Positions 21,505 to 38,843 of a DNA stretch of 64,000 bases are shown here, one piece after another. Position numbers and translations under genes: made by a program. Within the stretch, counting starts at the first letter, position 1; each line of letters begins with the position of its first letter. The DNA is from an uncultured Ilumatobacter sp. (lineage in GTDB: Bacteria; Actinomycetota; Acidimicrobiia; Acidimicrobiales; Ilumatobacteraceae), in the NCBI GenBank assembly GCA_905480335.1, contig CAJQPY010000021.1, positions 1 through 64,000 of the forward strand, given 5' to 3'. Under the pieces are notes generated by a model. The model had not been told where the DNA came from, searched no databases, and worked only from the letters and a program-made list of their open reading frames with translations.

Positions 21505-21523
21505 TGGTAAGACCATCAGACCA
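21505..21523. promoter_or_regulatory. Predicted GntR/FadR-type operator, site A
   Basis: TGGTAAGACCATCAGACCA fits the 19-bp pattern TGGTNNG-N5-CNNACCA shared by six sites in this window. It lies in the divergent promoter between the MDR operon (minus) and the Rieske leader/oxygenase (plus), so one site could control both directions. Confidence 0.75.
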
Positions 21524-21547
21524 TTACAGACGAAACGTAGGAGGAAC

Positions 21548-21589
21548 ATGTTCTTCATCGACATGGCGACGGACGACTCTGGCCGATGA
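21548..21589 (+). CDS. Short leader ORF (13 codons) coupled to the Rieske gene
   Basis: MFFIDMATDDSGR is preceded by GTAGGAGGAAC, the best ribosome site in this promoter region. Its TGA overlaps the ATG of the Rieske gene (ATGA). The Rieske ATG has no good ribosome site of its own, so ribosomes probably reach it by termination and reinitiation. The peptide has no run of rare or identical codons that would suggest attenuation. Confidence 0.5.
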   Translation: MFFIDMATDDSGR

Positions 21590-22575
21590 CTGCGAGCGAT
21601 CACCCGCTGGACCATTGTTGGTATGCCGTCGCAACAGCGGTTGCGATCACGGATCAGCCCTATCCGGTCGAAATTTGTGATGTCTCGTATGTCATTTGGC
21701 GCGGGTCAGACGGTGCACTGATTGCGGCAAGGGATCGATGTACGCACCGAGAAGCGAAACTGTCACTCGGAACCATCACCCACGGATGCCTTCGATGCCC
21801 GTATCACGGCTGGGTGTTCGGGGATGACGGCCGCTGCGTCGCCGTCCCCTCGTCGGGAGACAGCGCCACCATTGCACCCACCGCACATCTTGACACCCTG
21901 CAGGTCGCCGAACAGTATGGCCTGATCTGGTTCTCCCCCGGCGAACCGACACAGCCGATCCCGTCCCTTGACGTTGAATCGGACAGCACCTTCACGCGGC
22001 TCAACACAAACATGGAGATCTGGGACTGCTCGGTGACTCGCATGATTGACAATATGCTCGACGTCGCACATTTTCCCTACACCCATGCCGGCACCTTTGG
22101 CCGCGAGCAAGAACAAGCGGTCCCGAACTTCAGCCTCGAGCAACTCGACGACACCTTTTTTGGGTACAAATACAGCGTTGTTGTCAACAACGAAGGCGAG
22201 GCGAAAGCGATGTCTGGGGGCGGTGATGATGTCATCGGTTTGGACATGTCGACAGGATTTGCATTGCCGTACTCGGTTCGCAGCACGATGTCTTACGACA
22301 ACGGCATCGAACAGACGCTCTTCATGACAGCGTCTCCCATGAGCGCAGAACGGAGCTACTTCACGTTTGTGCTCTGGCGGAACGACGACGTCTCGACAAC
22401 TGGTCAGCAGATCGTTGACTTCGAGCGCGAGGTTGCACGGGAGGATCGCGAGATGCTTGAGCAACTCTCTGGTGAGCTGTCACTCAAGCGCGGCACGCTT
22501 GTCGACGTACAATCCGACAAAGCATCGCTCGAGTGGCGCCGCCGTTACAGCGCCATGGTCGATACGGCAATCTAA
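21586..22575 (+). CDS. Rieske non-haem iron oxygenase, VanA/pheophorbide-oxygenase-like
   Basis: 329 residues. The Rieske [2Fe-2S] ligands are Cys52-x-His54 and Cys71-x2-His74 (CPYHGW). The mononuclear iron histidines are probably His162 and His167 in DVAHFPYTH. Length and motif match the short single-component type that does O- or N-demethylation and similar reactions (VanA, dicamba monooxygenase). The start is fixed by the overlap with the leader ORF. It is closely related in layout to the Rieske at 36781. Control is expected through operator A. Confidence 0.88.
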   Translation: MTASDHPLDHCWYAVATAVAITDQPYPVEICDVSYVIWRGSDGALIAARDRCTHREAKLSLGTITHGCLRCPYHGWVFGDDGRCVAVPSSGDSATIAPTAHLDTLQVAEQYGLIWFSPGEPTQPIPSLDVESDSTFTRLNTNMEIWDCSVTRMIDNMLDVAHFPYTHAGTFGREQEQAVPNFSLEQLDDTFFGYKYSVVVNNEGEAKAMSGGGDDVIGLDMSTGFALPYSVRSTMSYDNGIEQTLFMTASPMSAERSYFTFVLWRNDDVSTTGQQIVDFEREVAREDREMLEQLSGELSLKRGTLVDVQSDKASLEWRRRYSAMVDTAI

Positions 22576-22578
22576 GCG

Positions 22579-23784
22579 CTACTCGCCGGCTGCAACTGCG
22601 TATCGATCAACTAGCCACGAATTGAACTGGGCAAGGACACCTTCCTGCCAGGAGTAGCGGCCACGCTGGGCGAATCTCGACTGCATCCCAAGCTGCGTTG
22701 CCACGTTGGTCGGCATGTCCTGGCGGTTGAACGTCGAAACGCCGGCGATTGCTGCCTCAAGTGATTCAGTGAAGTCGTGAAGCTCAATCGTCGACTCGGG
22801 GAAGATGTAGGCCATGCTGAGTGCATGGCTTGTCGGACCGGTGGGGTCGACGTAGAACCAGAACGCCGAGTCAGCTTGGAAGCCCATCAACAGCGACGGC
22901 GCTACTAGCGCGAAGATCACGCGCTGACGTTCCTCCATAGTCACTCCGGGTAGCGGTGGGAAGAGCGCTTTCATCGTCGGGTTAAATCCGCCATCGGGTT
23001 CCAACGTCTCACTGAAGCCAAACATTGCGACGTCGCCCGGCTCGTAGTCGGCATATGAAGCGCCGGAGGAGGGGGCAAAGTCATGGATGCCATGGTGAAG
23101 CCGGCTCTGGTGATACATCTCCATGAAGTTCTCGACCATGATCTTCCAGTTGAACGGGACGTCTGGGATCGTGACGGGATCGACGGTAACTAACGACTCG
23201 ACGCAGTAGTTCACGAGCACCTCGTCAAGCTTCGAGAGCTGCGGAGCGAGCGGTGCCGCAGCTGCATCGAAGTTGGTGAAGATAAACCCATTCCAAATCT
23301 CGACGGGCAGTCCAGGCAACCGCACCTCGGCCATGTCGAACCCTGGGGTCCTACCCATCTCCGGAGCACCGACCAGTTGTCCATCAAGGTCGTACACCCA
23401 GTAGTGGTACGGGCACCTGAACGTACGGCCTGCGCCTGACTGGAGTTCGGGTGGGCTTAGCATGTCCTCATCGGACCGGTCGACCGACGCGGTGATGCAC
23501 ATTGCCCGGTGCTGACACACCGCCGACATGACTCTGATGTTCCCATCGCTCGACCGGACGACAATGAGCGGCTCGCCGGCGCGCGTCACGGACAGATAAT
23601 CGCCGACGGCCGGGACCTGTTCCTGGCGGCCGACACAAAGCCACCCAGATCCGAACACTGCGTTCATCTCAAAGTCGTGGAACTGGGCATCGGAATACAC
23701 CACCGGTGGCAGACCGACCGCCGTCTCAAACGTTCCGCTCGACCTGCGCAGCGATTCAATCGACAATCCAAGTGGTATGACCAT
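22579..23784 (-). CDS. Rieske ring-hydroxylating oxygenase alpha subunit, choline/carnitine-monooxygenase-like
   Basis: 401 residues. The Rieske ligands are Cys90-x-His92 and Cys124-x2-His127 (CPYHYW). The iron site is ENFMEMYHQSRLH with His225 and His230. The 31-residue gap between the two Rieske pairs is longer than in the paralogue at 29413 (16 residues). ATG 23784 gives the same N-terminal length as that paralogue and lies inside operator B. No small beta subunit is encoded, as in alpha-only enzymes acting on quaternary amines. It ends 3 bp from the convergent Rieske at 21586. Confidence 0.87.
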   Translation of the reverse strand: MVIPLGLSIESLRRSSGTFETAVGLPPVVYSDAQFHDFEMNAVFGSGWLCVGRQEQVPAVGDYLSVTRAGEPLIVVRSSDGNIRVMSAVCQHRAMCITASVDRSDEDMLSPPELQSGAGRTFRCPYHYWVYDLDGQLVGAPEMGRTPGFDMAEVRLPGLPVEIWNGFIFTNFDAAAAPLAPQLSKLDEVLVNYCVESLVTVDPVTIPDVPFNWKIMVENFMEMYHQSRLHHGIHDFAPSSGASYADYEPGDVAMFGFSETLEPDGGFNPTMKALFPPLPGVTMEERQRVIFALVAPSLLMGFQADSAFWFYVDPTGPTSHALSMAYIFPESTIELHDFTESLEAAIAGVSTFNRQDMPTNVATQLGMQSRFAQRGRYSWQEGVLAQFNSWLVDRYAVAAGE

Positions 23785-23791
23785 CAGACCA
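23773..23791. promoter_or_regulatory. Predicted GntR/FadR-type operator, site B
   Basis: TGGTATGACCATCAGACCA differs from site A at one base. It lies between a divergent Rieske gene (minus, start 23784) and a VOC gene (plus, start 23831). It covers the Rieske start codon, so binding would block transcription initiation there directly. Confidence 0.75.
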
Positions 23792-23830
23792 AAGACTACT
23801 CTCGGAGTCCAACCCGCTCAAGGAGGCCCC

Positions 23831-24358
23831 ATGTCCTATCCCAACACCCTCGTCTTCGTCGACTTCCCGTCCGATGATGTCAACGCGGCTCGAGCCTTCT
23901 ATGCCGAAGTCTTCAACTGGGAGGTTGAGGACCGAATTGCTGACACGTTCGCGCGCATCGTCCCCGGACAGAACCAGAAGATCGATGACGGTTCACAAGG
24001 CCCGAGCGGCAACTTCCACATGGGCATCTCGAACGCCCGCGACATGCGACCGCGCCCCCCGGGCGCTCCGCAGGAACCAACCAACCTCAACCCCGGTGGC
24101 CGAACCGTTCGGCCCTGGATTCTTGTCAGCGACGACGACTCGTTCGAGCGCATCCTTGAGGCTGCGGTCCGTCTCGGCGGCACCGAATTGTGGCGCGATC
24201 ACTTCTGGACCGAGTTTGGTGGGGCCAACGCCTCGTTCATGGATCCATGGGGCAACCAGGTGATGCTGTGGGCTCATCTCGATGGCGTCGAGGTTGACGA
24301 TGACACTCATGAAGTCATCGGCGAGACCCCTCTTCCCGACGGTTGGACAATCGAATAA
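23831..24358 (+). CDS. VOC-superfamily (glyoxalase/bleomycin-resistance-like) protein
   Basis: 175 residues from ATG 23831 with an AAGGAGG ribosome site. The first half has FVDFPSDDVNAARAFYAEVFNW, the canonical VOC start. The second beta-alpha-beta-beta-beta unit ends FMDPWGNQVMLW with the metal-binding Glu replaced. The C-terminus is extended by about 30 acidic residues. It is paired divergently with a Rieske gene under operator B. It could be an isomerase or dioxygenase acting on the Rieske product; this is inference. Confidence 0.78.
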   Translation: MSYPNTLVFVDFPSDDVNAARAFYAEVFNWEVEDRIADTFARIVPGQNQKIDDGSQGPSGNFHMGISNARDMRPRPPGAPQEPTNLNPGGRTVRPWILVSDDDSFERILEAAVRLGGTELWRDHFWTEFGGANASFMDPWGNQVMLWAHLDGVEVDDDTHEVIGETPLPDGWTIE

Positions 24359-24486: not shown

Positions 24487-25422
24487 CTACTTGAGACCAC
24501 GTACGAAGGGTTGCGCAAGTGCCGCCGGTGGACGCACTCGGTGTGCGAACACGGCCATGCCGGCCAATGTGACGATAAAGGGCAGCGATTGCAGCAGCTC
24601 GCTGTTGACCTCGTAGCCGAGGCCCTGCACGGATAGCCGGAACGACAGGGCGCCGGCGAAAATCACGCACCCGGCGATAGTTCCACGCAGGGTCCATCCT
24701 CCGAAGATCACGGCGGCGATTGCGATGAAACCTCGCCCACCGACCACCGAGTCTTCGAATAGACCGATTTGGCCGAAGATGAGAAACCACCCACCGAGAC
24801 CGGATGTGAGACCCGCGTAGTAGATGCTCTGCCGGCGGCGGCGGTTGACATCGATACCCGATACGTCGGCTGATTGCGGATTCTCGCCAACTGAACGGAG
24901 CTCGAGACCCCACCGGGTTCGGTAGAGAACCCACCAGGTGAACGGAACAAGAAGATATAGAAGATAGAACGGCCACCGTTGACCGAACAACGCCTGGCCG
25001 AGCAGCGGGATGTCGCTGAGCACCGGGACCTCCCACCGACTCGCGAGTTCTGTGTCCGGCTCTAGTTCGTTGTCAAGGAAGCCGGCGAGACCGAACACCA
25101 AGATGTTGAGGGTCAGACCAACGACAAACTGATCTGCACTAAGCCGATGGCTCATCTCAGCCTGCACTCCTGCAACAATCACTCCGCCCAGCACTCCGGC
25201 GGCCATCGCAGCGATCGTCGACCCCGTCAGGTGGTAGCCGACTGCGCTGGTGAACGCACCGCCGAGCAACATACCTTCAACCGAGATGTTGATGGTCCCG
25301 GCGCGCTCCGCTACGAGCTCACCGGATGCGGCGAACGCAAGGAACCCGGCAAACAGGGCGCCGTTGATGTAGGTCGACTCACTCGTGAAGATGTCGATGA
25401 CTGCCTCGAAGAATCCTGACAT
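24487..25422 (-). CDS. BMP-type ABC importer, permease 2 (YufQ/NupQ-like)
   Basis: 311 residues from ATG 25422, with about 8-10 hydrophobic segments. AERAGTINISVEGMLLGGAF and GENPQSADVSGIDVNRRR are the signatures of BPD_transp_2 permeases that work with BMP (PnrA/Med) lipoproteins. These systems import nucleosides and other small polar molecules. It starts 2 bp after the first permease stops, so it is the last gene of the importer operon. The open frame extends upstream of 25422, but that part overlaps the first permease. Confidence 0.88.
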   Translation of the reverse strand: MSGFFEAVIDIFTSESTYINGALFAGFLAFAASGELVAERAGTINISVEGMLLGGAFTSAVGYHLTGSTIAAMAAGVLGGVIVAGVQAEMSHRLSADQFVVGLTLNILVFGLAGFLDNELEPDTELASRWEVPVLSDIPLLGQALFGQRWPFYLLYLLVPFTWWVLYRTRWGLELRSVGENPQSADVSGIDVNRRRRQSIYYAGLTSGLGGWFLIFGQIGLFEDSVVGGRGFIAIAAVIFGGWTLRGTIAGCVIFAGALSFRLSVQGLGYEVNSELLQSLPFIVTLAGMAVFAHRVRPPAALAQPFVRGLK

Positions 25423-25424
25423 CG

Positions 25425-26534
25425 CTATGCCCGATCCGTTGCTGCAGCACGTGACCGCCGTCGATCTCGAAGGAACATGACAGCTGGTGGGACAAGCAGC
25501 GCAAGGACCAAAAAGCCCTGAATCACATCGGTAATTCGGCCTTCCACCCCGGTTGCTCCGACAAAGCTCGAACCCGTTCGCAGGCCAGCAAAAATGAACG
25601 CCACCGGTATCGCTACGAGCGCTTTCTCGCGCGCAACCAAGGCAACCAGCAACCCTGTCCAACCGATGTTGGTGGCGAAGCCGGGCACAAGTTGGTAGTT
25701 ACCGAACGCGAAACCGCCGCCGGCCAACATGGCCGCTCCGGCAAGTCCAGCGAAACCTCCGCTAAGCATCAGTGCAGTCGCCCCGTAACGCGTTTGGGCA
25801 ACACCTGATCGCTGGGCTGCGCGTGGGTTGCGGCCCAACATGCGAAGTCGGAAGCCCCACACGGTGCGGGACAGAAGAATGCTGACCAGCACGGCGGCGA
25901 CGACTGCGAGGATGACTGCAAACGAGATCTCATTCCCAAAGATCTCAGGGCGAGGAAGACGGTTGTCGTCCGCGAGTTGAGAGCTGACCTGATTGCGATT
26001 CCCGCGATCCGCGAGCGGTGCGAGTAGAAGCCACGACTGGCTGAGTCCATAGGCGACCAACTGGCCACCCACTGTGACAAGAAGCAGCGTCGACAATACC
26101 TCGGGGACATTTCGCCAGAACTTGAGCAGAGCTGCGACGCCCGCCCATAGCGCACCTCCAACCACTCCGAAGAAAAGAATCACCACAACATTGAAAGGAC
26201 CGGGTCCACCAATCAGAAAACCGAAGTAGGTGGCGAACGCTGCGCCGACCAGCAACTGGCCCTCTTGGCCGATGTTGATCAGGCCGGCTCTGCCCGACAC
26301 GATCGTTCCGACGGCGACGAGCAGGATCGGCGCGGCGGTGCCGAGGGTCTCCCCCCACCGAGCCGGCTTGCGCAGGCTGCCATCAATCAACGCGCTGACG
26401 ACTGATCGCCACGCCCCACCTGTCGACTCCACGAGCAGGGCTGACAGCACCAGTGCTGCAAGGATGCTCAGCCCGTACAAGAACAGCCACTCGCCGAGGC
26501 GCGCACCGCGCTGAGAACTTGCGCCTTCGGTCAT
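25425..26534 (-). CDS. BMP-type ABC importer, permease 1 (YufP/NupP-like)
   Basis: 369 residues with an N-terminal membrane helix, about nine further hydrophobic segments and the family motif GRAGLINIGQEGQLLVGA. A second typical stretch is LGRNPRAAQRSGVAQTRYG, which contacts the ATPase. It has a longer periplasmic loop than permease 2, as usual for this subunit. The ATG overlaps the stop of the ATPase gene (ATGA). Confidence 0.9.
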   Translation of the reverse strand: MTEGASSQRGARLGEWLFLYGLSILAALVLSALLVESTGGAWRSVVSALIDGSLRKPARWGETLGTAAPILLVAVGTIVSGRAGLINIGQEGQLLVGAAFATYFGFLIGGPGPFNVVVILFFGVVGGALWAGVAALLKFWRNVPEVLSTLLLVTVGGQLVAYGLSQSWLLLAPLADRGNRNQVSSQLADDNRLPRPEIFGNEISFAVILAVVAAVLVSILLSRTVWGFRLRMLGRNPRAAQRSGVAQTRYGATALMLSGGFAGLAGAAMLAGGGFAFGNYQLVPGFATNIGWTGLLVALVAREKALVAIPVAFIFAGLRTGSSFVGATGVEGRITDVIQGFLVLALLVPPAVMFLRDRRRSRAAATDRA

Positions 26535-28144
26535 TGCGCGACGCCACCCATCATCAAGCCGAGTGACTCGAGGCTGACGTTGGCGCGGTCCATTCCACCC
26601 ACGATCCGACCGGCATGCATCACCACGATGCGGTGCGAGAGGTCCAGAATCTCTTCAAGCTCGCTGGAAATCAGCAGCACTGCAACGCCGTCTGCGGCTG
26701 CTGACTTCAACCGATCGCCCATGTATTCGATGGCTCCAACGTCAAGGCCACGCGTTGGCTGTGCTGCAACGAGCACCTTGGGATGCTGTGCAAGTTCGCG
26801 TGCGAGTACAACTCGTTGTTGGTTTCCACCCGACAGCGACCACATCGGGGCGTCTGGACCGCTGCAATGAATCCCAAATTGGCTGATCATCTCCCTAGCA
26901 AAATCGTCGAGCTCAACTTGGTTGATGACGCCGCCCGTTGAGACTCTCGACTGATCGACAAGGATCAGATTCTCGGCCAACGTCATGTCGAGCACGATCC
27001 CACTGTCATGACGATCCTCGGGGATCACTCCGATGCCAGCTTTTGCCATGGCTCCCGAACGACCATCTGGTACCCGGGTTCCCTCGATTGCAACCGAGCC
27101 TGAATTTAAAGAAACGAGGCTCGAGAGTAGATCGCCGAGTTCGCGTTGTCCGTTGCCCTCGACGCCGGCGACGCCCACAATTTCGCCCGGATGGAGTTCA
27201 AGGGAGAAATCATCGAGAACAGGCGTACCTCCTGGGCCGCGGAGTGTTGCCCGATCAATCGTAAGAATTGGGGGGCTCGAGACTGCCGGCACGGCGTCGG
27301 GACTTGCGTTGGAGTCCAACGCCTTGGCACCGTCTTCATCGATCACGAGAACGCCGAGAGCCGCACTCTCCGACCGGAGTGATACGTCCCTTCCCACCAT
27401 GCCCCGAGCGAGCGTGGGGGCATCGGTGTCCCCTGCCAGGAGCCGATCAACGACTTTTCCCTGGCGCATGATCGAGATGTCGTCAGTCGCATGAAGGACT
27501 TCGTCGAGCTTGTGACTGACGAGGACCACGGCACGCCCTTCTTCGGTCACGACCTGACGAAGCGACGAGAACAGCTGAACGGACTCTTCCGGCGTCAACA
27601 CCGACGTTGGCTCGTCGAAGATGAGGATGCTCGGATCTCTGCGCAGGCACTTGATGATCTCGACTCGCTGCCGCAGTCCAGCGGTGAGATTCCCGACCCG
27701 TGCGTCAGGGTCAATGATTAGACCGTAGTGGTCGGCGATCTCTCCGATGCGGTTTCTGATCGAGGCAGGGTTTAGGCGCCCTGCTTCGCCGAGCGCGACG
27801 TTCTCCCACACGGTGAGCGCGTCGACGAGGCTGAAGTGCTGGTGCACCATGCCGATGCCGAGTGATGCTGCTGCGAGCGGACTATGGATCTGCTGCGGCA
27901 CACCATCGATGCAAATCGAGCCCTCATCAGGCAGCACCAGCCCGATCAGCATCTTCATGAGCGTGGACTTTCCTGCTCCGTTCTCGCCGAGTATCCCATG
28001 TATTCGGCCGCGTCGAAGAGTGAGGTCAACTCCGTCACACGCCGTGACGGGACCAAACCGTTTCGTGATACCGCGTATGTCCACCGCCGGTGCGGACTCC
28101 ACTAGGGAGCCCGCACCGGTCAGACCGTCGGCACTGGATTGCAT
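26531..28144 (-). CDS. BMP-type ABC importer, dual ATPase subunit (YufO/NupO-like)
   Basis: 537 residues with two nucleotide-binding halves. Half 1 has Walker A GENGAGKST (53-61), a degenerate signature LTAGLRQ and Walker B ILIFDEPTS. Half 2 has the non-canonical Walker A GVEGNGQREL and a perfect signature LSGGNQQR. This asymmetry is normal for sugar/nucleoside (RbsA/NupO) ATPases. An insert near 265-300 is rich in small residues and may link the halves. It shares TGATG with the stop of the lipoprotein gene. Confidence 0.93.
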   Translation of the reverse strand: MQSSADGLTGAGSLVESAPAVDIRGITKRFGPVTACDGVDLTLRRGRIHGILGENGAGKSTLMKMLIGLVLPDEGSICIDGVPQQIHSPLAAASLGIGMVHQHFSLVDALTVWENVALGEAGRLNPASIRNRIGEIADHYGLIIDPDARVGNLTAGLRQRVEIIKCLRRDPSILIFDEPTSVLTPEESVQLFSSLRQVVTEEGRAVVLVSHKLDEVLHATDDISIMRQGKVVDRLLAGDTDAPTLARGMVGRDVSLRSESAALGVLVIDEDGAKALDSNASPDAVPAVSSPPILTIDRATLRGPGGTPVLDDFSLELHPGEIVGVAGVEGNGQRELGDLLSSLVSLNSGSVAIEGTRVPDGRSGAMAKAGIGVIPEDRHDSGIVLDMTLAENLILVDQSRVSTGGVINQVELDDFAREMISQFGIHCSGPDAPMWSLSGGNQQRVVLARELAQHPKVLVAAQPTRGLDVGAIEYMGDRLKSAAADGVAVLLISSELEEILDLSHRIVVMHAGRIVGGMDRANVSLESLGLMMGGVAQ

Positions 28145-29370
28145 CAGCCGCCGTATGCAGCGCCGGAGATCGCTCCGAGTTCGCCGTACAGCGTGTCGTC
28201 GAACGAAGCGAGCAGACCGAACGCCCCGTCCACTGCTGCCTGCGCTTCCGGCGATGGGTTACACAGGAGACCGCCGTTGAGACCCTGCTCTGTCGGGAAT
28301 TCGTAGGTCGAACCCTCGGTGAGTTCGCCTTCGATGATCAAGGTCAGAGCTTGTGACGCATACACGCCACCGTCGAAGACGACCGAACCGGTCCAGGGAA
28401 TATCGCGCTCGCATGCGTCAGCCGGCCCGGCCGCAAACACGGCCATACCCTCGTCGATGCCAAGTTGGCCAACAGGATCAAGTGCGCCGCCGAGATAAGC
28501 GTAGGCAAGCGTAGCGCCGTTCGCCTGCGCGTTCGTGAGCGCTGCGGTTGCGTTAGCAGCATTGTCGAAGTCGAATTCGAAGTCACCGGTCCCGACATAC
28601 TCCATGGTGAAACTCGGATCGACTGACTGCATTCCGAAGACGGTGGCGTTGTAGGCCTCAACTTCAAAGTTGATGTCACAGCATCCGAGGAAAACCGAGC
28701 TTGTGCTCCCCTGCTCCTGCATCAACGCGCCCATAGCGACGCCCCCGGTGTAGTGAATGGCGGCACCCCAGTCGGTTGCCTGCGCCAACCCAGGAAGTTC
28801 TTGGAAGCCGGCTCCACAGTTGCAGTACCAGAAGATATCCGGGTACTGCTCGGTCAGGTCCGGCAGCGGTTCTGCGATCTCACTCGCACCGACCATCAAA
28901 ATGTCGACACCCTGCTGGGCAAGATCAGACAGAGACTGCGCTGCCTCAGCGGGGCCGATGTTGTCGCTCACAATCGGTGCGGCGAACCCGTTCTCTTCCG
29001 AGTATTCCTCCGCAAAATTCACTAGCGACTGGTAGTAGCCGTTGTCGTCGCGCGGTCCAGCGGCGGCCACCCCGATGGTGACGGTGCCATCTCCGTTAGC
29101 GTCAAACGCCGCAACGATGGCGTCAGTTTCAGGCTCAGGAGCCTCGGTTGTCGCCGGGTCCTCAACAATTTCCTCGGCATCGTCCGCAACGTCATCGGCG
29201 GCATCTTCGGCGTCATCAACGACGCCTTCGGTGTCGTCAACAGCATCCTCAGCGAGGTTCTCCACCTCAGTTGTGACTGATTCAGAGTCGCTCCCACACG
29301 CTCCGGCTAACAGCGCAAGTGACACGCACAGCGCAATCGGGCGCCCTTTCTTGCTCTTCAATACGTTCAT
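28144..29370 (-). CDS. BMP-family substrate-binding lipoprotein of the ABC importer
   Basis: 408 residues. A signal peptide ends in the lipobox LAGAC (Cys25), so the protein is lipid-anchored outside the membrane. A striking Asp/Glu/Ala-rich linker (about 32-80) follows, then the two-lobed BMP domain with TIGVAAAGPRDDNGYYQSL and the ligand-contact segment AGPADACERD. BMP proteins mostly bind nucleosides or purines, and some bind other ligands. A GGGGGAG ribosome site precedes ATG. It is 42 bp downstream of a Rieske gene on the same strand. Confidence 0.9.
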   Translation of the reverse strand: MNVLKSKKGRPIALCVSLALLAGACGSDSESVTTEVENLAEDAVDDTEGVVDDAEDAADDVADDAEEIVEDPATTEAPEPETDAIVAAFDANGDGTVTIGVAAAGPRDDNGYYQSLVNFAEEYSEENGFAAPIVSDNIGPAEAAQSLSDLAQQGVDILMVGASEIAEPLPDLTEQYPDIFWYCNCGAGFQELPGLAQATDWGAAIHYTGGVAMGALMQEQGSTSSVFLGCCDINFEVEAYNATVFGMQSVDPSFTMEYVGTGDFEFDFDNAANATAALTNAQANGATLAYAYLGGALDPVGQLGIDEGMAVFAAGPADACERDIPWTGSVVFDGGVYASQALTLIIEGELTEGSTYEFPTEQGLNGGLLCNPSPEAQAAVDGAFGLLASFDDTLYGELGAISGAAYGG

Positions 29371-29406
29371 TACTCCCCCTTGTGTTTATTGCTTGTTGGA
29401 CTTGAC

Positions 29407-29422
29407 GGCTTCTTAAGAAGCC
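29407..29422. repeat. Perfect 16-bp palindrome over the Rieske stop codon
   Basis: GGCTTCTTAAGAAGCC contains the TAA stop of the Rieske gene (29413-29415) and lies just upstream of the importer lipoprotein gene. As RNA it could fold into a hairpin with little loop, or be a protein site. No T-run follows on the minus strand, so it is not a simple terminator. It may separate expression levels of the enzyme and transporter halves of the operon. Confidence 0.4.
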
Positions 29423-30582
29423 CCCAGCGCGTCGGCGCGGTAACGCTTGACGAGCCAGCGATTGAACTGGATGTGACTTTCCTCTTGCCAGGAGTACCGA
29501 CCCCTTGGCGCGAACCGAGATCGAAGGCCGCGTTGCACCTTGGTCGTGGCGTCTTGGTCTTGGTCAACGAAAACCTGCACCCCGGCATCTGACAACGCCA
29601 GTTTCTGCTCGAACAGCGGGTCCTCGAGCGCCGATGGGTGGAAGATGTAGCCGATCTCGACGTCGATCGTTTCCGGACCGGTTGGGCGGATCAGGAAAAA
29701 GAAGCACTGATCCGGTGCCGTCCCGAAACACAGCGTCGGCGGTATGAGAGCAAAGGTCGAACGGGTCCGCTCCTCCTCGGTCAGGCCGGGGAATACATCC
29801 ATGATGACACGGTGAGTTGCATTGAACCCTCCGTCGATGTGGGTGTATCCGGCCGTTCGGAAGATCACGTTGGAGCTGTCGTCCCACGGAACCGGAAAAT
29901 TCGACATGCTCGACGGGCAGAAGTCCTGTACAAATTGATGCAGCCGGTTGGCGTGGTAGCCATCGTTAAAATTCTCGAACATGACCTTCCAGTTCCACGG
30001 CATTCCTTCGAGCGTGAAGGTGCCAGGGCAAACGGCATTCTCAAGGTCGAAATTGCGAACGTACGGTGAATACCGTTCCAGGGTTGGAGCGAGCGGCGCC
30101 GCGTCGGCGTCAAAATTCACAAACACAAAACCGAGCCACTGTTCGACTCGCAGTTGCGGAAGGCCGAAATCAGCCTTATCGAATGCCTCGGTGCGCTCCA
30201 TCGCCGGTGCTCCGAGGAGGCGACCGTCGAGACCATAGTTCCAATGATGGTATGGACATTTGAACGTGGTGCTGTTGCCCTGACCTTCGCAGACCTGCAT
30301 AGCACGGTGCTGGCACACTGCCGACATAGCGCGCACTTGACCGTCCTTGTTGCGGGCGATGATGAGAGGCTCGTCGACGATGGTGACCGTGAACCAATCG
30401 CCCACATTCGGGATCCGTTCGGAGCGGCCGACGCACAACCACTCCTTCATGAACATTGCATCCGTCTCAAACGACAGCACATCCGGCGACGTATACAGCT
30501 CTGGGGGGAGTGTCGCTGCTGTGGAGACGTCGTCGATCGACGCATCGAGACCAGCCAACAAGTTCTCATTCAGCATGCTCAC
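29413..30582 (-). CDS. Rieske ring-hydroxylating oxygenase alpha subunit, choline/carnitine-monooxygenase-like
   Basis: 389 residues. The Rieske ligands are Cys90-x-His92 and Cys109-x2-His112 (CPYHHW). The iron histidines are 210 and 215 in ENFNDGYHANRLH. It is a clear paralogue of the Rieske at 22579. GTG at 30582 overlaps the stop of the CoA-ligase gene (GTGA); ATG at 30576 is the alternative. It is embedded in the long minus-strand operon from 36684 to the importer. The likely reaction is monooxygenation or dealkylation of the imported compound, with electrons from a reductase not encoded here. Confidence 0.9.
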   Translation of the reverse strand: MSMLNENLLAGLDASIDDVSTAATLPPELYTSPDVLSFETDAMFMKEWLCVGRSERIPNVGDWFTVTIVDEPLIIARNKDGQVRAMSAVCQHRAMQVCEGQGNSTTFKCPYHHWNYGLDGRLLGAPAMERTEAFDKADFGLPQLRVEQWLGFVFVNFDADAAPLAPTLERYSPYVRNFDLENAVCPGTFTLEGMPWNWKVMFENFNDGYHANRLHQFVQDFCPSSMSNFPVPWDDSSNVIFRTAGYTHIDGGFNATHRVIMDVFPGLTEEERTRSTFALIPPTLCFGTAPDQCFFFLIRPTGPETIDVEIGYIFHPSALEDPLFEQKLALSDAGVQVFVDQDQDATTKVQRGLRSRFAPRGRYSWQEESHIQFNRWLVKRYRADALGAS

Positions 30583-32102: not shown

Positions 32103-32104
32103 GG

Positions 32105-33685
32105 CTAGTCCGCAACCCCGTAGCCCCCGCCACCGGGGAGTTCGAGGCGGATCACGTCGGACCCCTCAAGGCTGATCCGGGCCTGAGTTTCAACTGCCTC
32201 GCCATTGACGAGGAAGCTGCCTGTCGCACCGGCCTCGCCACCGAAAACGCCTAGCGGCGGGTCGGCGAGACGGCTGGTGACCGCATTCAACTGCCAGGCC
32301 TTCTCGGTGTCAACACTGAACTCGATCGCCTGCCCGAGACCTCCAGTTTGCGCGCCAGCACCACCCGAGTCGAGGCGCAACGACTTTTCGCGGAATCTGA
32401 TCGGAGCGGATGCTTCAACCACCTCGATCGGGACCGCCGACACACCGGTTGGATAGGAACAAGCGTTGAGCCCGGGCTTGGTCGCTCGTGCACCGACGCC
32501 CCCAGCGTAGGTGAACATGGCCGTGATGAATGGACTGCCGTCGGGATGGTTACCGTTGACCTGCATCGTCCAAACCGCTCCGGACCCTTCGGCCATTGCT
32601 GCGTTGGGCTGAACTTGCGCAAGCGCTTTGAGGAGCGCGTTAGGTAAAAACATCCCCACGACATGGCGTGCCGTACCTGGTTGCGGCGAAACAGCATTCA
32701 CGATCGAACCGATCGGGGCCTTGACCTTGATCGGGCCGAGGCTGCCGTGATTGTTCGGGATGTCGGGATTAAGTACCGATCGCACCGTAAACGTCGTGTA
32801 CGCGTGGGTGTAGTTCATCACCACGTTGATGCCCCACGGCGACGCCTCGGAAGTGCCGTCGTAGTCGACCGTAATCTCTCCGAGCTCAGCATCAATTGTG
32901 AGCGCACACATGATGTCGATCTTCGATCCGTCGGCAAGGTCGAGCACCGCGCTGGATTCGTAGGTCCCGCTCGGAAGCCCGCGAATGCTGTCCCGGGTGG
33001 CCTCTTCGGAACGGTTAATGATCTCGTCGGCTAACTCTTCGATGTCGTCAAGACCGTGAGCCGCACAGAGTGTGTTCAGCCGTTGTGCTCCGACTTCACC
33101 CGATGCCATCTGGGCATGCAGGTCGCCCGCCATGTGGTCGGGCTGGCGCACATTCGACAGGATAAATTTCCACACGTCTTCATTGCGTTCGCCACGCTTC
33201 AAGAGTTTGCAAATCGGGATCCACAGCCCCTCTTCGAACACGTCTCGGCCACCAGCACCTATGCCGTAGCCGCCGACGTCGGTGTGGTGGATGGTCGAGC
33301 CGAATAGGGCCATGATTTTGCCGTTACGCCACGCCGGTACGAGGACCGTGACGTCAAGCAACTGTCCGGCGGTCTTGTACGGATCATTGGTGATCAGCAC
33401 GTCGCCCTGCTCGAGTGTGTCGACGGGGTACTCCTCCAGCATTTTGGCGGCGCCGATTGCAAGTGAATTAATGTGGCCGGGTGTGCCGGTGACCGCTTGA
33501 GCGACCATGCGACCGCGGCGGTCGAATACTGCGTTGGCTAGATCGCCGGCCTCACGCACGATCGGCGAGAAGGCCGACCGCTGGAGCGCCCTCGCCTGCT
33601 CGTTGACCGTCGAAATAAGCGACTGCCAAAGAATTTCGAGTTCGATCGGATCGAATCCCGAAGGTCGTGTTTCGGTGATGGTCAT
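32105..33685 (-). CDS. Hydantoinase B/oxoprolinase-family subunit (HyuB-like)
   Basis: 526 residues from ATG 33685 (MTITETRPSGFDPIELE), preceded by AAGGAG; the longer open frame upstream overlaps HyuA. Features of HyuB are VNEQARALQRSAFSPIVREAGD, then LITNDPY, STIHHTDVGG and a glycine-rich C-terminus PGGGGYG. HyuA and HyuB together form ATP-dependent enzymes that open hydantoin or 5-oxoproline rings or carboxylate ketones (acetone/acetophenone carboxylase relatives). The ATG overlaps the HyuA stop (ATGA). No third small subunit is evident. Confidence 0.9.
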   Translation of the reverse strand: MTITETRPSGFDPIELEILWQSLISTVNEQARALQRSAFSPIVREAGDLANAVFDRRGRMVAQAVTGTPGHINSLAIGAAKMLEEYPVDTLEQGDVLITNDPYKTAGQLLDVTVLVPAWRNGKIMALFGSTIHHTDVGGYGIGAGGRDVFEEGLWIPICKLLKRGERNEDVWKFILSNVRQPDHMAGDLHAQMASGEVGAQRLNTLCAAHGLDDIEELADEIINRSEEATRDSIRGLPSGTYESSAVLDLADGSKIDIMCALTIDAELGEITVDYDGTSEASPWGINVVMNYTHAYTTFTVRSVLNPDIPNNHGSLGPIKVKAPIGSIVNAVSPQPGTARHVVGMFLPNALLKALAQVQPNAAMAEGSGAVWTMQVNGNHPDGSPFITAMFTYAGGVGARATKPGLNACSYPTGVSAVPIEVVEASAPIRFREKSLRLDSGGAGAQTGGLGQAIEFSVDTEKAWQLNAVTSRLADPPLGVFGGEAGATGSFLVNGEAVETQARISLEGSDVIRLELPGGGGYGVAD

Positions 33686-35775
33686 GATGGCTCCTTCGCG
33701 ATCCTGGTTGCGATGAGGCTGCCGTCGCGGGCGACTTCGACGTCCCAACCAGGTCGGATGACAGAGGTGGTCTCTCGTTCTTCGACCACGGCAGGACCGG
33801 TGAAGCGCGCCCCCGCTCCGAGGGTCGTGCGGTCATAAACTGGTGCATCGAGGGCGTCGACCCCACGCGAGAAGACCATCGGGCGGGAACCCTTCGGTAC
33901 AACGTCGCCAGCGTGGTCAGCGATCGAGTCGTCGGGTTCAACCAGCGACGTGGTGGCTGATGCCGACAGCCGCCAAGTAATCGCTTCCACCGCAACGTCA
34001 GGAATGGCCATCCCGTAGATACGCCGGTACTCACTCTCGAACGCAACGGTCACGCCCGCGGCGGTGGCTGGCCATGTATCCCCTTCACCGACCCAGATCG
34101 TGATCTCGTTGCCTTGGCCCGCATACCGGGCATCGACGCCGTAGCGGAAGACGATCGCTTCGTCCGGAACGCCCGCTGCCCTCAGGACTCGCCTTCCTTC
34201 GTCGCGCAGCTCTTCGAGCAGACCGTCGCGTTCTGCGTCCGTCACCTTGTCGATCAGCCGGGGCATCGAACGGGCAAGGTCAATACGCACGGGCGACACG
34301 AGCGTTCCGAAAGCGGACAAGACCGACGCGTTGACCGGAAAGATGACCCGGTCAGATTCGAGGAGCTCGGCAACTCCACAGGCATGAACAGGTCCAGCTC
34401 CGCCGAACGCTATGAGTGGGATGCCTCGAAGGTCGACGCCCATTTCGACGCCATGCATACTCGCCGCAGCTGCCATGTTCTGGTTGACCACCTCGTGAAT
34501 TCCGGCGGCCGTGTCGATCATTTCGAGGCCGAGTCCGCTGGCTACCGTTTGTGCGGCACCCTCGGCGAGCGATCGATCGAGCGGCATGTCGCCACCCAGG
34601 AACTCTGCAGGGTCGAGCAGCCCCAGAATTACGTCGGAGTCCGTGACGGCAGGGATCGTGCCGCCCTGCCCGTAACTCGCCGGGCCTGGGTCAGCCCCGG
34701 AGGATTCGGGACCGACCTTCAGGAGACCGAATTGGTCGACGCGGGCGAGGCTGCCGCCGCCGGCGCCGATCTCGACGAGGTCGACTGACGGGACCGACAC
34801 CGGAAACCCAGAGCCCTTCTTGAAGCGATAAGCGCGGGCAACCTCGAAGGTGTTCGTCAGTTCCGGCTCACCTTGCTCGATTAGGCACGCCTTAGCGGTG
34901 GTGCCGCCCATGTCGAAGCAAAGCAGACGGTCAATTCCGAGACGATTCGCGAACCAACTCCCGGCGAGCGCCCCGGCGGCGGGGCCGGATTCGACGAGCC
35001 GAATCGGTCCGCGCGCCGCGTCATCAGCGGAGACGACGCCACCGTTAGACAACATCATCAAAACCGATCCCCCGAAGCCTTCCGAGGCGAGCCACTTCTG
35101 GAGTTCGTCGAGGTACGGTCCGATGACCGGCATAGTCGCAGCGTTGCATGCAGTGGTGACCATGCGCGGGTACTCACGAATCTGTGGAGAGATCTCGGCG
35201 GAGATGCACACCGGCACTCCCAGTGCAGCGCGAAGGTGGTCAGCAATCTTCTGCTCGTTAGACGCGTTGACGTAAGAATTCAGGCAACAGATCGCGACCG
35301 ACTCGACGCCGGCCGCGCCGAGCTGAACGGCGAGCGCGTCAAGGTCAGCCTCGGTTGGTTTGATAATGACGTTGCCTCGTGCATCGGTTCGCTCGTCGAT
35401 TTCAAAAGTGAGTTCCCGCGCAATCGGAGGCGGTGGAAACTCGATCTGGAGGTCGTACATGTCATATCGATGCTCGTCACGGATGAGCAATGTGTCGCCG
35501 AACCCCTTCGTGGTGACGAGGCCTGCGAGACCTGTTTTACCTTCGATTAGCGCATTCGTGATCAGTGTCGTGGCATGCACGATCGGTGCGGTGATCTCAC
35601 CCGGCTTCACATCCGCCTTCGCAAGTAGTTGCGTGACGCCGGTGCGCACGCCATCAAGGGGCGCGTTCGGCGTAGTGAGCGTCTTGTCAACAACAACTCG
35701 GCCCGATGCAGCATCAAGCAGTACAACATCGGTGAACGTGCCACCAATATCTACTGCCAGCCTCCAGTCGGTCAT
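33682..35775 (-). CDS. Hydantoinase A/oxoprolinase-family ATPase subunit (HyuA-like)
   Basis: 697 residues, the usual length. DIGGTFTDVVLLD at the N-terminus is the first phosphate motif of this ASKHA-like fold. DMGGTTAKACLI is the second, and AFGGAGPVHACGVAE the third. It binds and hydrolyses ATP to activate the substrate for the HyuB partner encoded next to it. It lies 37 bp after the cupin gene with a GGGAGA ribosome site. Whether the pair is a hydantoinase, oxoprolinase or carboxylase cannot be told from sequence. Confidence 0.92.
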   Translation of the reverse strand: MTDWRLAVDIGGTFTDVVLLDAASGRVVVDKTLTTPNAPLDGVRTGVTQLLAKADVKPGEITAPIVHATTLITNALIEGKTGLAGLVTTKGFGDTLLIRDEHRYDMYDLQIEFPPPPIARELTFEIDERTDARGNVIIKPTEADLDALAVQLGAAGVESVAICCLNSYVNASNEQKIADHLRAALGVPVCISAEISPQIREYPRMVTTACNAATMPVIGPYLDELQKWLASEGFGGSVLMMLSNGGVVSADDAARGPIRLVESGPAAGALAGSWFANRLGIDRLLCFDMGGTTAKACLIEQGEPELTNTFEVARAYRFKKGSGFPVSVPSVDLVEIGAGGGSLARVDQFGLLKVGPESSGADPGPASYGQGGTIPAVTDSDVILGLLDPAEFLGGDMPLDRSLAEGAAQTVASGLGLEMIDTAAGIHEVVNQNMAAAASMHGVEMGVDLRGIPLIAFGGAGPVHACGVAELLESDRVIFPVNASVLSAFGTLVSPVRIDLARSMPRLIDKVTDAERDGLLEELRDEGRRVLRAAGVPDEAIVFRYGVDARYAGQGNEITIWVGEGDTWPATAAGVTVAFESEYRRIYGMAIPDVAVEAITWRLSASATTSLVEPDDSIADHAGDVVPKGSRPMVFSRGVDALDAPVYDRTTLGAGARFTGPAVVEERETTSVIRPGWDVEVARDGSLIATRIAKEPS

Positions 35776-35812
35776 CGGCTGTTCTCCCTATGTCCAGGAA
35801 CATAAAGTCGGC

Positions 35813-36199
35813 TCATCGGTCTTCTCGCAGGTCATCTCGAGGTGGAGCAAACACGTCGAGGATCCAGCACTCGTTCAGCTCATCGTCGCCCACGAACAGG
35901 CTGTCGCCGTGCCAAACACCAGGCTGGGCTAGGTACGCCTGATTGACACCAACGACCTTTCGATCGGGCGCGGCCTCAGAATCATCGATCCGGAAGTCGA
36001 GCGCACCACGGACAATGATGCCGAGTTGCTCGTGTTCATCGTGCTTATGCATGAACGATCCGGTTGCGCCTCCGGCAATTCGCCAGAAACAGAGCTGCAG
36101 GTTATCGCCGGTGATAACTCGACGCCGGAAACCCGGGCGGTCGGTTTCGGTGAACTCTTCGTCATCGAAGAAGTGGCAGTATTCATTTGCAAGATTCAT
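35813..36199 (-). CDS. Small cupin-domain protein
   Basis: 128 residues, single cupin barrel. The metal-type motif 1 reads HKHDEHEQLGIIVRG (H-x-H then Glu) and motif 2 reads PGVWHGDS. It may be a metal-dependent isomerase, lyase or dioxygenase, or a ligand-binding helper. The ATG overlaps the stop of the VOC gene (ATGA) and it precedes HyuA, so it is co-translated with the pathway. The exact reaction is unknown. Confidence 0.8.
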   Translation of the reverse strand: MNLANEYCHFFDDEEFTETDRPGFRRRVITGDNLQLCFWRIAGGATGSFMHKHDEHEQLGIIVRGALDFRIDDSEAAPDRKVVGVNQAYLAQPGVWHGDSLFVGDDELNECWILDVFAPPRDDLREDR

Positions 36200-36684
36200 G
36201 ACGAAGCTCCGATCATGTCCGGGAACCGAGCAGCCTCTTCATCAAGGTTAAGAGGCCGAATGATTGCCTCATGCTCCTCTTCGCCCCAACGGTCTATTGG
36301 GACGAGCCACATCACCTCAAACTCGAGGCCGTCCGGATCCATGCAGTACAAGCTCTTGTTCGCCCCGTGGTCAGAGGCACCCTTCATGACGCCGGCAGCG
36401 CTTAGGCGTCGCTCCATCGCAATAAGATCACCAAGCGTTTCAACCTCCCAGGCAAGATGGTAGAGGCCAACCGTTTCGCGGCCGGCAGCAGACTGTTGCG
36501 CTTGCTCTCCGATGGTGAAGAAGGCGATGTCGTGGTGGTTGTCCGACCTCGGTGCACGCATGAAGGCGAACTGCCCTGGTTCGTCGATAACCGTTACGAA
36601 ATCAAGGACGTCTTCGTAGAACTGTCGATGCCGTGTCGAGTCACGCACATATAAAACTGCGTGGTTCATACCTTTGATGCTCAC
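36196..36684 (-). CDS. VOC-superfamily protein (extradiol-dioxygenase/glyoxalase-like), first gene of the operon
   Basis: 162 residues from GTG 36684 after GGGAGAG. The sequence starts GMNHAVLYVRDSTRHRQFYEDV and contains NHHDIAF, YHLAWEVETLGDL and DPDGLEFEVMW, with two His and a Glu in metal positions as in glyoxalase I or type-I extradiol dioxygenases. It opens the long operon VOC-cupin-HyuA-HyuB-CoA ligase-Rieske-importer and lies directly downstream of operator C. Confidence 0.83.
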   Translation of the reverse strand: MSIKGMNHAVLYVRDSTRHRQFYEDVLDFVTVIDEPGQFAFMRAPRSDNHHDIAFFTIGEQAQQSAAGRETVGLYHLAWEVETLGDLIAMERRLSAAGVMKGASDHGANKSLYCMDPDGLEFEVMWLVPIDRWGEEEHEAIIRPLNLDEEAARFPDMIGASS

Positions 36685-36705: not shown

Positions 36706-36724
36706 TGGACTGATGGTCAGACCA
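36706..36724. promoter_or_regulatory. Predicted GntR/FadR-type operator, site C
   Basis: On the minus strand this reads TGGTCTGACCATCAGTCCA and fits TGGTNNG-N5-CNNACCA with one mismatch (TCCA). It lies 22 bp upstream of the first gene of the large operon, in the same orientation relative to that gene as site D to its own. Confidence 0.7.
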
Positions 36725-36780: not shown

Positions 36781-37773
36781 CTACTCAATGCCAACCAGGT
36801 CAGCGAACCGACGGCGCCACTCGACGGACGGCTTATCGGACTGCACGTTCACCAGCCCGGTTCGACTCAGTGGGAGTGTGCCCGGGACTGTTTCCAGCAT
36901 GGCCCGATCCTCTGCGCCAATCGCTCGATCAAAGGCCAAGATTTCCTCCGGATCGACGCCGTGGTCGTCGTTACGCCAAACAACGAAGGTGAAAAGCGAA
37001 TTGAGGTCGTCGACGGGAGTGCTGCAGAGCAGCAGGATGTGTTCCAGCCCGTCGTCGTAACGAATAGTGCTGCGGACGATGAAGGGAAGCGCAAAGCCCG
37101 TAGTCATGACACGATGAACGAAATCGTCCTCACTTCCACTCACCGCCACTGCTTCGTCGGGATTTGCTGCATCTACCTCGTACGTGTAGCCAAAGAAGTC
37201 ATCGTCTAGGGGGCCGAGTTCAAGCTTCGGAACAACTGGATCCTGTCCTGCGCCAAACGTGCCCGTGTGTACCCAGGGGAAGTGACTGAAGTCCATGAAG
37301 TTGTCGACAAGCCGCGGCGACGACGTACTCCACGCCTCGACCTCGGTGTTCAGGCGCCGAAACATCGGGTCATCATCTTGGGCGATTCGCGGGATGTCGA
37401 ATGCGGGCACACCCGGGCAGACCCATACCAACCCGTAGAGCTCTTGAACTTGCATGCACCGCAGGTGAGCCGTCGGCGGAATTGCAGCCTGCGGGCCAGA
37501 CGACGGAACCGACACACACTGCCCAGCGGCGCCGAACACCCAACCGTGATAGGCGCACGTCAGTTCACCATTGTCGACTATTCCGATCGAGAGCGGCGCC
37601 TCGCGATGCGGACACCGGTCAGGGGCGACGACAAGCGATCCGTCAGGCCCTCGCCAGATGACGAGGTCCTCACCGAGAAGACGGACGGCGAGCACGTTTT
37701 CACCGAGCTCCGAAACCCGCGCAACCGGATACCAGGCTGTGCGCAGTGCTGGGCTCTGAACAAATTGAGTCAT
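36781..37773 (-). CDS. Rieske non-haem iron oxygenase, VanA-like
   Basis: 330 residues from ATG 37773 (MTQFVQSPAL). An upstream in-frame start at 37806 lacks support. The Rieske ligands are Cys54-x-His56 and Cys73-x2-His76 (CAYHGW); the iron site is DFSHFPWVH with His164 and His169. It is a close paralogue of the oxygenase at 21586 (shared NTxxExW, GTFGxxQ and C-terminal VQSDKxSxEWRRR). Two such enzymes in one regulon suggest successive dealkylations or alternative substrates. Operator D lies 43 bp upstream. Confidence 0.88.
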   Translation of the reverse strand: MTQFVQSPALRTAWYPVARVSELGENVLAVRLLGEDLVIWRGPDGSLVVAPDRCPHREAPLSIGIVDNGELTCAYHGWVFGAAGQCVSVPSSGPQAAIPPTAHLRCMQVQELYGLVWVCPGVPAFDIPRIAQDDDPMFRRLNTEVEAWSTSSPRLVDNFMDFSHFPWVHTGTFGAGQDPVVPKLELGPLDDDFFGYTYEVDAANPDEAVAVSGSEDDFVHRVMTTGFALPFIVRSTIRYDDGLEHILLLCSTPVDDLNSLFTFVVWRNDDHGVDPEEILAFDRAIGAEDRAMLETVPGTLPLSRTGLVNVQSDKPSVEWRRRFADLVGIE

Positions 37774-37815
37774 TTGATGACCTTCCCCATAATTGCCGGC
37801 AAGCAAAAGCCTCAG

Positions 37816-37834
37816 TGGTCAGACCAGCAGACCA
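37816..37834. promoter_or_regulatory. Predicted GntR/FadR-type operator, site D
   Basis: TGGTCAGACCAGCAGACCA, a full match to the 19-bp pattern. It lies upstream of the minus-strand Rieske gene that starts at 37773 and downstream of the regulator gene. A weaker dyad (TGACCATAGGTCA, 37841-37853) follows directly. Confidence 0.75.
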
Positions 37835-37917
37835 CCGACCTGACCATAGGTCATCGACGCCACGACAGTCACGCGCCCCCGAATTCCGAGATTCGTTCCA
37901 GCGACATCGGTGGCGTG

Positions 37918-38634
37918 TCAGTCGAGATCGTCGACCATCGAATGCTCGACCGCATCAAGATGCGACTGCGCTGCGAAACGAACCGCTTCGGCGTCTCGAC
38001 TGAAGAAGGCTTCGGCGATCTCGCGGTGCGCCTCGCCCGACTCAGCGATGATTCGAGCCACCTCGGCCTGGTTGCTCTCCGCTGAGAGCAGCGTAAAGAA
38101 TTCGATGGAGCGGAAAAGCTGGTCGAGAACCTTGCCGTAAAGTTCGATCAAGAGCGGGTTACCGCATGCGGCCGCAACAGTTGTATGAAATTCTCGATCG
38201 AGCTGGCGAAAGTCGTTAATGTCCAGTTGTGGATCGAACTGAGCAGCGACAGCAACAATGCGCTCGCGATCTTCCTGGCTTGCGCGCTGCGCTGCCATCT
38301 CGAAGAGTGGAACCTCGAGAACCCTACGCGTTTCGAAAAGTTCGGCAATAAACGTCTTCCCGTCACCACTCGGCTCGAGCACCACATCGGGTAGATGCTC
38401 CGCCACGTACACACGATTCCCACGCCGCTGGACAACCCCCATGGAGACCAACCCCTGCATCGCCTCTCGCACTGAGGTGCGTGCCACCTCAAACTTCTCC
38501 GAGAGTTCGCGTTCGGAGGGCATCCGGTTCCCGGGGGCCAACTCGCCGGTCGAAATCCACTCCAACAACTGGGTTCGTATCTGCGAGCTCACGGTCTCTC
38601 GCGAGATCGGTGTCACTGCTGGAGTTTGATGCAT
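37918..38634 (-). CDS. GntR-family transcriptional regulator, FadR subfamily (FCD domain)
   Basis: 238 residues. The winged helix-turn-helix (about 17-78) contains PSERELSEKFEVARTSVREA, the FadR-group recognition helix. The all-helical FCD domain (about 90-225) contains FETRRVLEVPLFEMAA, REFHTTVAAACGNPLL and later His residues that usually bind a metal and the effector. Regulators of this group recognise TGGT-type half-sites and normally release DNA when a pathway acid binds. Six fitting operators surround the gene, one (site E) at its own promoter, so it is the likely local repressor. Confidence 0.93.
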   Translation of the reverse strand: MHQTPAVTPISRETVSSQIRTQLLEWISTGELAPGNRMPSERELSEKFEVARTSVREAMQGLVSMGVVQRRGNRVYVAEHLPDVVLEPSGDGKTFIAELFETRRVLEVPLFEMAAQRASQEDRERIVAVAAQFDPQLDINDFRQLDREFHTTVAAACGNPLLIELYGKVLDQLFRSIEFFTLLSAESNQAEVARIIAESGEAHREIAEAFFSRDAEAVRFAAQSHLDAVEHSMVDDLD

Positions 38635-38681
38635 TGCTAAGACTTCTTTCAGACTGCATTATTCCGCAGAGATTGGAGTGT

Positions 38682-38700
38682 TGGTATGACAACCATACCA
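38682..38700. promoter_or_regulatory. Predicted autoregulatory operator of the GntR gene, site E
   Basis: TGGTATGACAACCATACCA is a perfect inverted repeat (TGGTATG-N5-CATACCA) and, with one more pair on each side, TTGGTATG...CATACCAA. It lies 48 bp upstream of the regulator start and defines the symmetry of the operator. Confidence 0.78.
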
Positions 38701-38824
38701 AACGCCTACAACGACGCCGAGAGGAGTGCCTCACCTTTTGTCTGCCTCATGTGAGTTTGTATTCGAGATTTAATGCGGCGCAAGTACCCTGCAATTGTCA
38801 GAACCAACAGCGCAACCTGCCTTT

Positions 38825-38843
38825 CGGTCTGACCAACTGACCA
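38825..38843. promoter_or_regulatory. Predicted GntR/FadR-type operator, site F
   Basis: CGGTCTGACCAACTGACCA fits the pattern with one mismatch at the first base. A small palindrome TGGTACCA (38846-38853) follows. It lies upstream of the plus-strand VOC gene and 125 bp from site E, in the promoter region shared with the divergent regulator. Confidence 0.65.

Follow-up and report, generated by a model that had tools for sequence, protein, structure and literature searches.

How is a catabolic gene cluster in an uncultured Ilumatobacter sp. switched on and off, and by what arrangement of DNA sites? The cluster lies in a 64,000-nucleotide stretch of contig CAJQPY010000021.1 (assembly GCA_905480335.1), the whole of which we refer to as the window, and a gene for a GntR/FCD-type regulator (37918..38634) stands among its catabolic genes together with six copies of a 19-bp site. 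A first-pass annotation of the window had described these copies as simple symmetric operators, TGGTNNG-N5-CNNACCA, of a local GntR/FadR regulon. Our analysis points to an autoregulated FCD-type repressor of a conserved catabolic regulon that would act through three-part operators and be released by a pathway metabolite, a reading to which we assign, from sequence comparison, a probability of roughly 0.8. Very probably it is this regulator that shuts the breakdown pathway off through the sites, which, with the distances to the nearest genes, are as follows (the genes themselves are given further below).

21505..21523, plus strand: operator A, TGGTAAGACCATCAGACCA, between the ADH operon (start 21452, minus strand, 52 bp away) and VanA1 (21586, plus strand, 62 bp away), with TATGGT directly at its 5' end, toward 21586.
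23773..23791, plus strand: operator B, TGGTATGACCATCAGACCA, 39 bp before VOC1 (23831, plus strand) and overlapping the first ATG (23784) of RHO1 (22579-23784, minus strand); this RHO1/VOC1 arrangement with a site recurs in genomes G219 and G077.
36706..36724, minus strand: operator C, TGGTCTGACCATCAGTCCA on that strand, 21 bp before VOC2 (36684), the head of operon 36684-24487; counterparts stand before VOC2 in 13 other loci.
37816..37834, plus strand: operator D, TGGTCAGACCAGCAGACCA, 42 bp before the ATG of VanA2 (37773, minus strand); counterparts stand before VanA2 in 14 other loci.
38682..38700, plus strand: operator E, TGGTATGACAACCATACCA, 47 bp before the start of the regulator gene (38634), containing a -10-like TATGGT toward gntR; sites of its class, with third half-site TACCA, occur in six other loci.
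38825..38843, plus strand: operator F, CGGTCTGACCAACTGACCA, 45 bp before VOC3 (38889, plus strand), with a -10-like TACCAT 5 bp after it; counterparts occur in 13 other loci.

The symmetric pattern of the first-pass annotation matches as claimed: its hits at 21505, 23773, 37816 and 38682 are exact, and those at 36706 and 38825 carry one mismatch each. Its placing of every site in a promoter holds for the starts 21-62 bp away and fails for RHO1, whose first ATG falls inside the site. Across the 2.95-Mb genome the exact pattern has eight sites, four in the cluster and four elsewhere, where composition predicts about 3.4 per genome and 0.02 in the 17.3-kb span. Allowing up to two mismatches gives 43 matches in the window, where 100 shuffles average 27.5 (largest 39), so that most of the two-mismatch matches are background; three more one-mismatch matches lie in the window outside the cluster (7367, 12955 and 50008). 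When all sites are read in one orientation (36706 reversed), their common consensus is YGGTMWGACCANCWGACCA, which at up to one mismatch is found at five of the six cluster sites and at no other place in the genome. Two mismatches bring in 38682 as well as C28:14820 and C39:51458, and the 8 kb around each of the latter two contain no pathway homologs beyond general ABC ATPases; three mismatches amount to background (24 genome matches in total, compared with 18 for a reversed-pattern control). Exact matches to YGGTMWGACCANCWGACCA are expected from composition about 0.001 times per genome, a rarity figure that is not a test because the pattern was derived from the sites themselves. The six sites are real and go beyond chance.

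What kind of operator do they form? The simple two-fold symmetric 19-mer has to be corrected: the sites read as an 11-bp FadR-type palindrome, TGGTCWGACCA, with a third half-site, CWGACCA, 8 bp further on one side. We collected cores matching TGGTNNNACCA with G at position 7 from 27 loci while ignoring their flanks, and 60 of the resulting 69 cores have GACCA (at least four of five letters) exactly 8 bp beyond the core's own on at least one side, whereas the identical test at 12 other offsets found it in 0 to 5 of the 69. Starting from the other end, 44 of the 47 GACCA-N3-GACC repeats found close to pathway genes have TGGT (at least three of four letters) as first half-site. From 26 loci we also assembled 73 non-redundant sites, selecting for fewest mismatches; in this set the columns of the third half-site hold 1.0 to 1.9 bits, except position 14 (0.5), values that are indicative since the selection favours the core. 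In the window the TGGTNNNACCA core is present in A, B, C and D, while one end reads CGGT in F and ACAA in E. The resemblance to FadR/PdhR-type sites that had been suggested is borne out, as TGGTNNNACCA fits TKGT-N3-ACMA, the FadR-subfamily operator consensus (PMC4494728).

A single dimer could instead grip the outer half-sites of a symmetric 19-mer, with the middle half-site incidental, and the window copy before the regulator gene is indeed perfectly symmetric, as the first-pass annotation had noted. That symmetry is not conserved, however, six other loci matching at only 4-6 of 7 arm positions; moreover, the middle half-site completes the 11-bp FadR palindrome, cores picked regardless of their flanks give the same layout, and TGGT occupies the palindrome position in those 44 of 47 repeats. 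We therefore consider binding to the outer half-sites very unlikely. As a candidate for the full operator code, the symmetric pattern was rejected: it overlooks the middle half-site and has the four exact sites elsewhere in the genome.

The third half-site also has a direction. It lies downstream in 14 of 14 VOC2 sites, 8 of 8 VOC1 sites and 26 of 28 VOC3 sites, and upstream in all 15 VanA2 sites, so that for each of the targets VOC2, VanA2 and VOC1 it keeps to one side (sides were assigned to minimise mismatches, and for a few cores either reading is possible).

In order to place the operator in a wider setting, we drew on 298 genomes of the order. The regulator has matches at E<=1e-15 in 46 of them, and we took as orthologs those of the 26 best genomes (at least 155 bits, 41-100% identity, the window's own included), to which one Ilumatobacter contig was added. 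Among the loci fetched, copies of the operator again stand in front of VOC2, VanA2, VOC3/GntR, VOC1 and further homologs of pathway genes. A loose scan of all 298 whole genomes with TGGTMNGACCANYNGNCC gave 131 matches, 76 of them in 23 of the 26 ortholog genomes, where a reversed-pattern control gave 8, and 55 in 49 of the 272 genomes without an ortholog, which we take as chance, reversed-pattern controls being untotalled there. A strict form, TGGTMWGACCANCWG[AT]CC, whose letters come from the window's sites and which was fixed after the loose scan had been seen, has 53 matches in 23 of the 26 ortholog genomes and 3 matches in 3 of the 272 others (Fisher 5e-28, uncorrected for kinship). Fifty of the 53 lie at most 300 bp upstream of a pathway homolog with at least 40% identity, several of them on contigs other than the regulator's; by nearest gene they divide into VOC2 (12), VanA2 (11), VOC1 (10), VOC3 (8), ADH (3), RHO1 (2) and one each for cupin, the substrate-binding protein, GntR and amidohydrolase.

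Do the sites follow the pathway or the regulator? HyuA is found at E<=1e-250 in 41 of the 298 genomes. Strict sites are present in 21 of the 24 HyuA-positive genomes with an ortholog and in 0 of the 17 without (two of which, G262 and G281, have a distant 36% relative of the regulator), and the sites therefore follow the regulator, not the pathway. Eight fetched ortholog-less HyuA loci with a VOC2 promoter showed no site at up to two mismatches; the single three-mismatch match among them lies inside a gene. The earlier proposal of a local regulon of the adjacent GntR/FadR gene thus gains strong support from comparative genomics. In G176, G150, G224 and G244 (L095-L096, L099, L100 and L105) the order VOC2-cupin-HyuAB-ligase-RHO2-transporter is kept without a GntR gene and without operators. 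A search for a replacement regulator among 10 neighbouring open reading frames of four ortholog-less genomes found none among the seven with Pfam matches; three had no match.

Some other transcription factor might nevertheless use the sites, given that binding by this GntR protein is a prediction and that three strict sites occur in ortholog-less genomes, one of them beside a distant GntR paralog (G269). We find this barely credible in view of the co-occurrence of site and ortholog, the absence of sites from HyuA-positive genomes that lack the ortholog, the FadR-type core, and the sites before the regulator gene itself in most loci. The G269 site (L093:3990), TGGTCTGACCAACTGTCCA, lies about 50 bp before the paralog (31% over part of its length), and the three-part layout may therefore extend past the ortholog group.

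A same-genus genome, G134, has two one-mismatch sites 845 bp apart (C1, about 717.3-718.2 kb; L075:4000-4863), which flank an open reading frame without Pfam match and the start of a formamidase/acetamidase-like gene; this region is a possible extra member of the regulon.

The regulator is built as a protein of this family would be expected to read: the N-terminal GntR winged helix-turn-helix (PF00392, E 6e-18) spans residues 17-74 and the C-terminal FCD domain (PF07729, E 5.8e-23) residues 98-227. Invariant across 14 aligned of the 27 orthologous sequences are R41, R51, R55 and E56, which we take to serve DNA binding, and one aspartate and three histidines, D145, H149, H202 and H224, presumably the metal ligands of the FCD domain. 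Among the 25 listed of 28 NCBIfam models matched, there is none whose cut-off it reaches; NanR (108.9 bits, cut-off 260), LldR (87.6, 311) and PdhR (83.7, 330) score highest, and its closest solved structure is E. coli NanR (E 4.3e-17).

This kinship bears on stoichiometry. Two dimers might bind each operator cooperatively at an 8-bp offset, as E. coli NanR does on GGTATA repeats, the second dimer placing one domain on the third half-site and the other on non-consensus DNA, which would refine rather than replace the repressor reading. The third half-site at exactly 8 bp, NanR's status as closest solved relative and the pure direct repeat before VOC2 in G189 are in line with this, as are the likewise 8-bp spacing of the NanR direct repeats TGGTATAW (PMC4494728) and NanR's use of one domain on non-consensus DNA with dimers about half a turn apart (PMC8012715). 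NanR cooperativity, on the other hand, needs a 32-residue N-terminal extension (PMC8012715). Such an extension is ruled out for this regulator, because the alignment sets its residue 8 opposite NanR residue 25 and no more than 8 further residues fit into the open frame. We hold the two-dimer arrangement to be a serious possibility, somewhat short of even odds.

Where do the operators sit relative to the promoters? TANNNT begins 0-8 bp after the operator at all 14 VOC3-proximal and all 8 VOC1 sites, compared with 0 to 3 of 14 and 0 of 8, respectively, in four control windows. At 13 of 14 VOC2 sites TA directly precedes the operator and makes TATGGT with the first half-site, and among the VanA2 sites a hexamer stands at the TATGGT position in 5 of 15 and slightly upstream in 6 of 15. 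In the window TATGGT occurs at operators A (toward VanA1), C, D and E. The site before gntR carries third half-site TACCA in seven loci; a TANNNT inside this operator follows from the core geometry, and the change to TACCA alone is therefore notable. At most targets the operators overlap or adjoin -10-like hexamers. The regulator might act mainly as an activator at some targets, the operator recruiting RNA polymerase: FadR-class proteins can both activate and repress, and at VOC1 and VOC3 the -10-like hexamer follows shortly after the operator. The VOC2 operator, however, overlaps its hexamer, and at E the hexamer is inside, positions that suit repression, and we judge activation unlikely.

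In the repressor reading, the GntR/FCD protein (37918-38634) would bind the three half-sites (TGGTCWGACCA, one base, CWGACCA) before each target unit, with one dimer on the 11-bp FadR-type palindrome and the third half-site, which directly repeats the adjacent one at 8 bp, as an accessory contact or possibly the seat of a second dimer. With the operator of most targets lying across or next to the -10 region, bound regulator would exclude RNA polymerase, and would repress its own gene as well, until a pathway metabolite in the FCD domain, near the predicted metal, releases it. The sites with their conservation, spacing and side, their co-occurrence with the regulator and their position before pathway genes are observations; binding, repression, stoichiometry and effector we infer.

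A more elaborate version can be put forward tentatively, and taken as a whole we think it rather more likely wrong than right: a directional hybrid operator in which a FadR-type palindrome is fused to a NanR-type 8-bp direct repeat. Jointly, the single extra half-site would recruit a second dimer on one side only, its side would be set per target gene and so tune repression of each promoter, before the regulator gene it would double as part of the -10 element, and the G189 direct repeat before VOC2 would connect the two operator types in evolution.

Several points weigh against the repressor reading. Regulator binding and repression are themselves inferred from sequence, and the -10 assignments come from consensus matches, with no single -10 position shared by the VanA2 and GntR promoters. 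The strict pattern postdates the loose scan, and the Fisher value treats related, non-independent genomes as though kinship played no part. Not every strict site in an ortholog genome stands upstream of a pathway homolog with at least 40% identity: of the three exceptions, one in G134 is beside a 33% VOC homolog, one in G232 lies beyond the 3' end of a 41% substrate-binding-protein homolog, and the third is in G285. Three ortholog genomes, G044, G189 and G288, have no strict site, only variants: TTGTCAGACCAACAGTCAA in G044, TGGTCTGACAATCAGACCG in G288, and in G189 TGGTCTGTTGGTCTGTTTA before VOC2, a direct repeat without palindrome, together with a palindromic core before VOC1.

The strict site in G285 (L079:3995) lies between purQ-like and purL-like genes and is either chance or a stray target. 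The G044 assembly (C6, about 153.6-154.3 kb) has its regulator ortholog divided over two frames, and HyuA and HyuB there appear as two pieces each.

The genes of the locus are as follows.

16837..21452, minus strand: operon of ADH, O-methyltransferase, amidohydrolase and luciferase-like monooxygenase.
21586..22575, plus strand: VanA1, Rieske oxygenase (VanA_C).
22579..23784, minus strand: RHO1, ring-hydroxylating oxygenase alpha subunit; start codon uncertain.
23831..24358, plus strand: VOC1, glyoxalase/VOC-fold protein; a longer open reading frame opens at 23777.
24487..36684, minus strand: operon of VOC2, cupin, HyuA, HyuB, acyl-CoA ligase, RHO2 (Rieske), a substrate-binding-like protein, an ABC ATPase and two permeases.
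36781..37773, minus strand: VanA2, Rieske oxygenase (VanA_C); the open reading frame opens at TTG 37806.
37918..38634, minus strand: GntR/FCD regulator, 238 amino acids, the proposed repressor (Pfam GntR and FCD).
38889..39383, plus strand: VOC3, glyoxalase/VOC-fold protein.

Gene order in the 24487..36684 operon is largely preserved across related loci; a Pfam scan of its substrate-binding-like open reading frame gave no match. The nearest model for the ABC ATPase is a putative B6 transporter, at a score below its cut-off, and the nearest solved structure for both RHO1 and RHO2 is carnitine monooxygenase; we draw no substrate conclusion from either. In the carnitine monooxygenase alignments RHO1 (22579-23784) has Glu (FMEMYH), presumably typical of that enzyme, where RHO2 (29413-30582) has Asp (FNDGYH), and the substrates of the two may therefore differ.

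Searches of one collection of open-access papers found no report of this regulon, and nothing for Ilumatobacter with GntR. For a conserved catabolic pathway, the system supplies a code of regulator and operator that can be tested in detail. It also provides a natural case for the role of additional GntR half-sites, with dozens of sites in about two dozen genomes and relatives in which the hydantoinase gene occurs without regulator and without sites; that role has been left to further experimental study (PMC4494728).

How, finally, does the system compare with known ones? Members of the FadR subfamily (PdhR, LldR, GlcC, FadR) are alike in the GntR winged helix-turn-helix, the FCD domain and the 11-bp TGGTNNNACCA core, but here the operator adds a strong third half-site at fixed spacing and the regulator falls below the NCBIfam cut-offs, those of the LldR and PdhR family models included. 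E. coli NanR, whose dimers can occupy 8-bp repeats while spaced roughly half a turn apart (PMC8012715), shares the probable FCD metal site and a direct repeat of 8-bp units, whereas this regulator lacks the N-terminal extension and scores below the NanR cut-off, and in place of GGTATA direct repeats the unit is TGGTCWGN with a palindromic partner. The site predicted for M. smegmatis MSMEG_0596, GTGTGGTCAGACCACAC, holds the same 11-bp core; it is a prediction only, and its entry in PMC2018728 shows no third half-site. Closest in kind are the additional GntR-family half-sites described by Suvorova et al., weaker boxes 7-12 nt from the site centre on one or both sides (PMC4494728): the extra half-site here falls within that distance, but it is a single box, kept to one side in most cases and to one spacing, and conserved nearly as well as the core. 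An additional half-site is mentioned in PMC6746942 too. We conclude that this is a new regulon whose operator is a strong, fixed and directional variant of a known GntR-family type.

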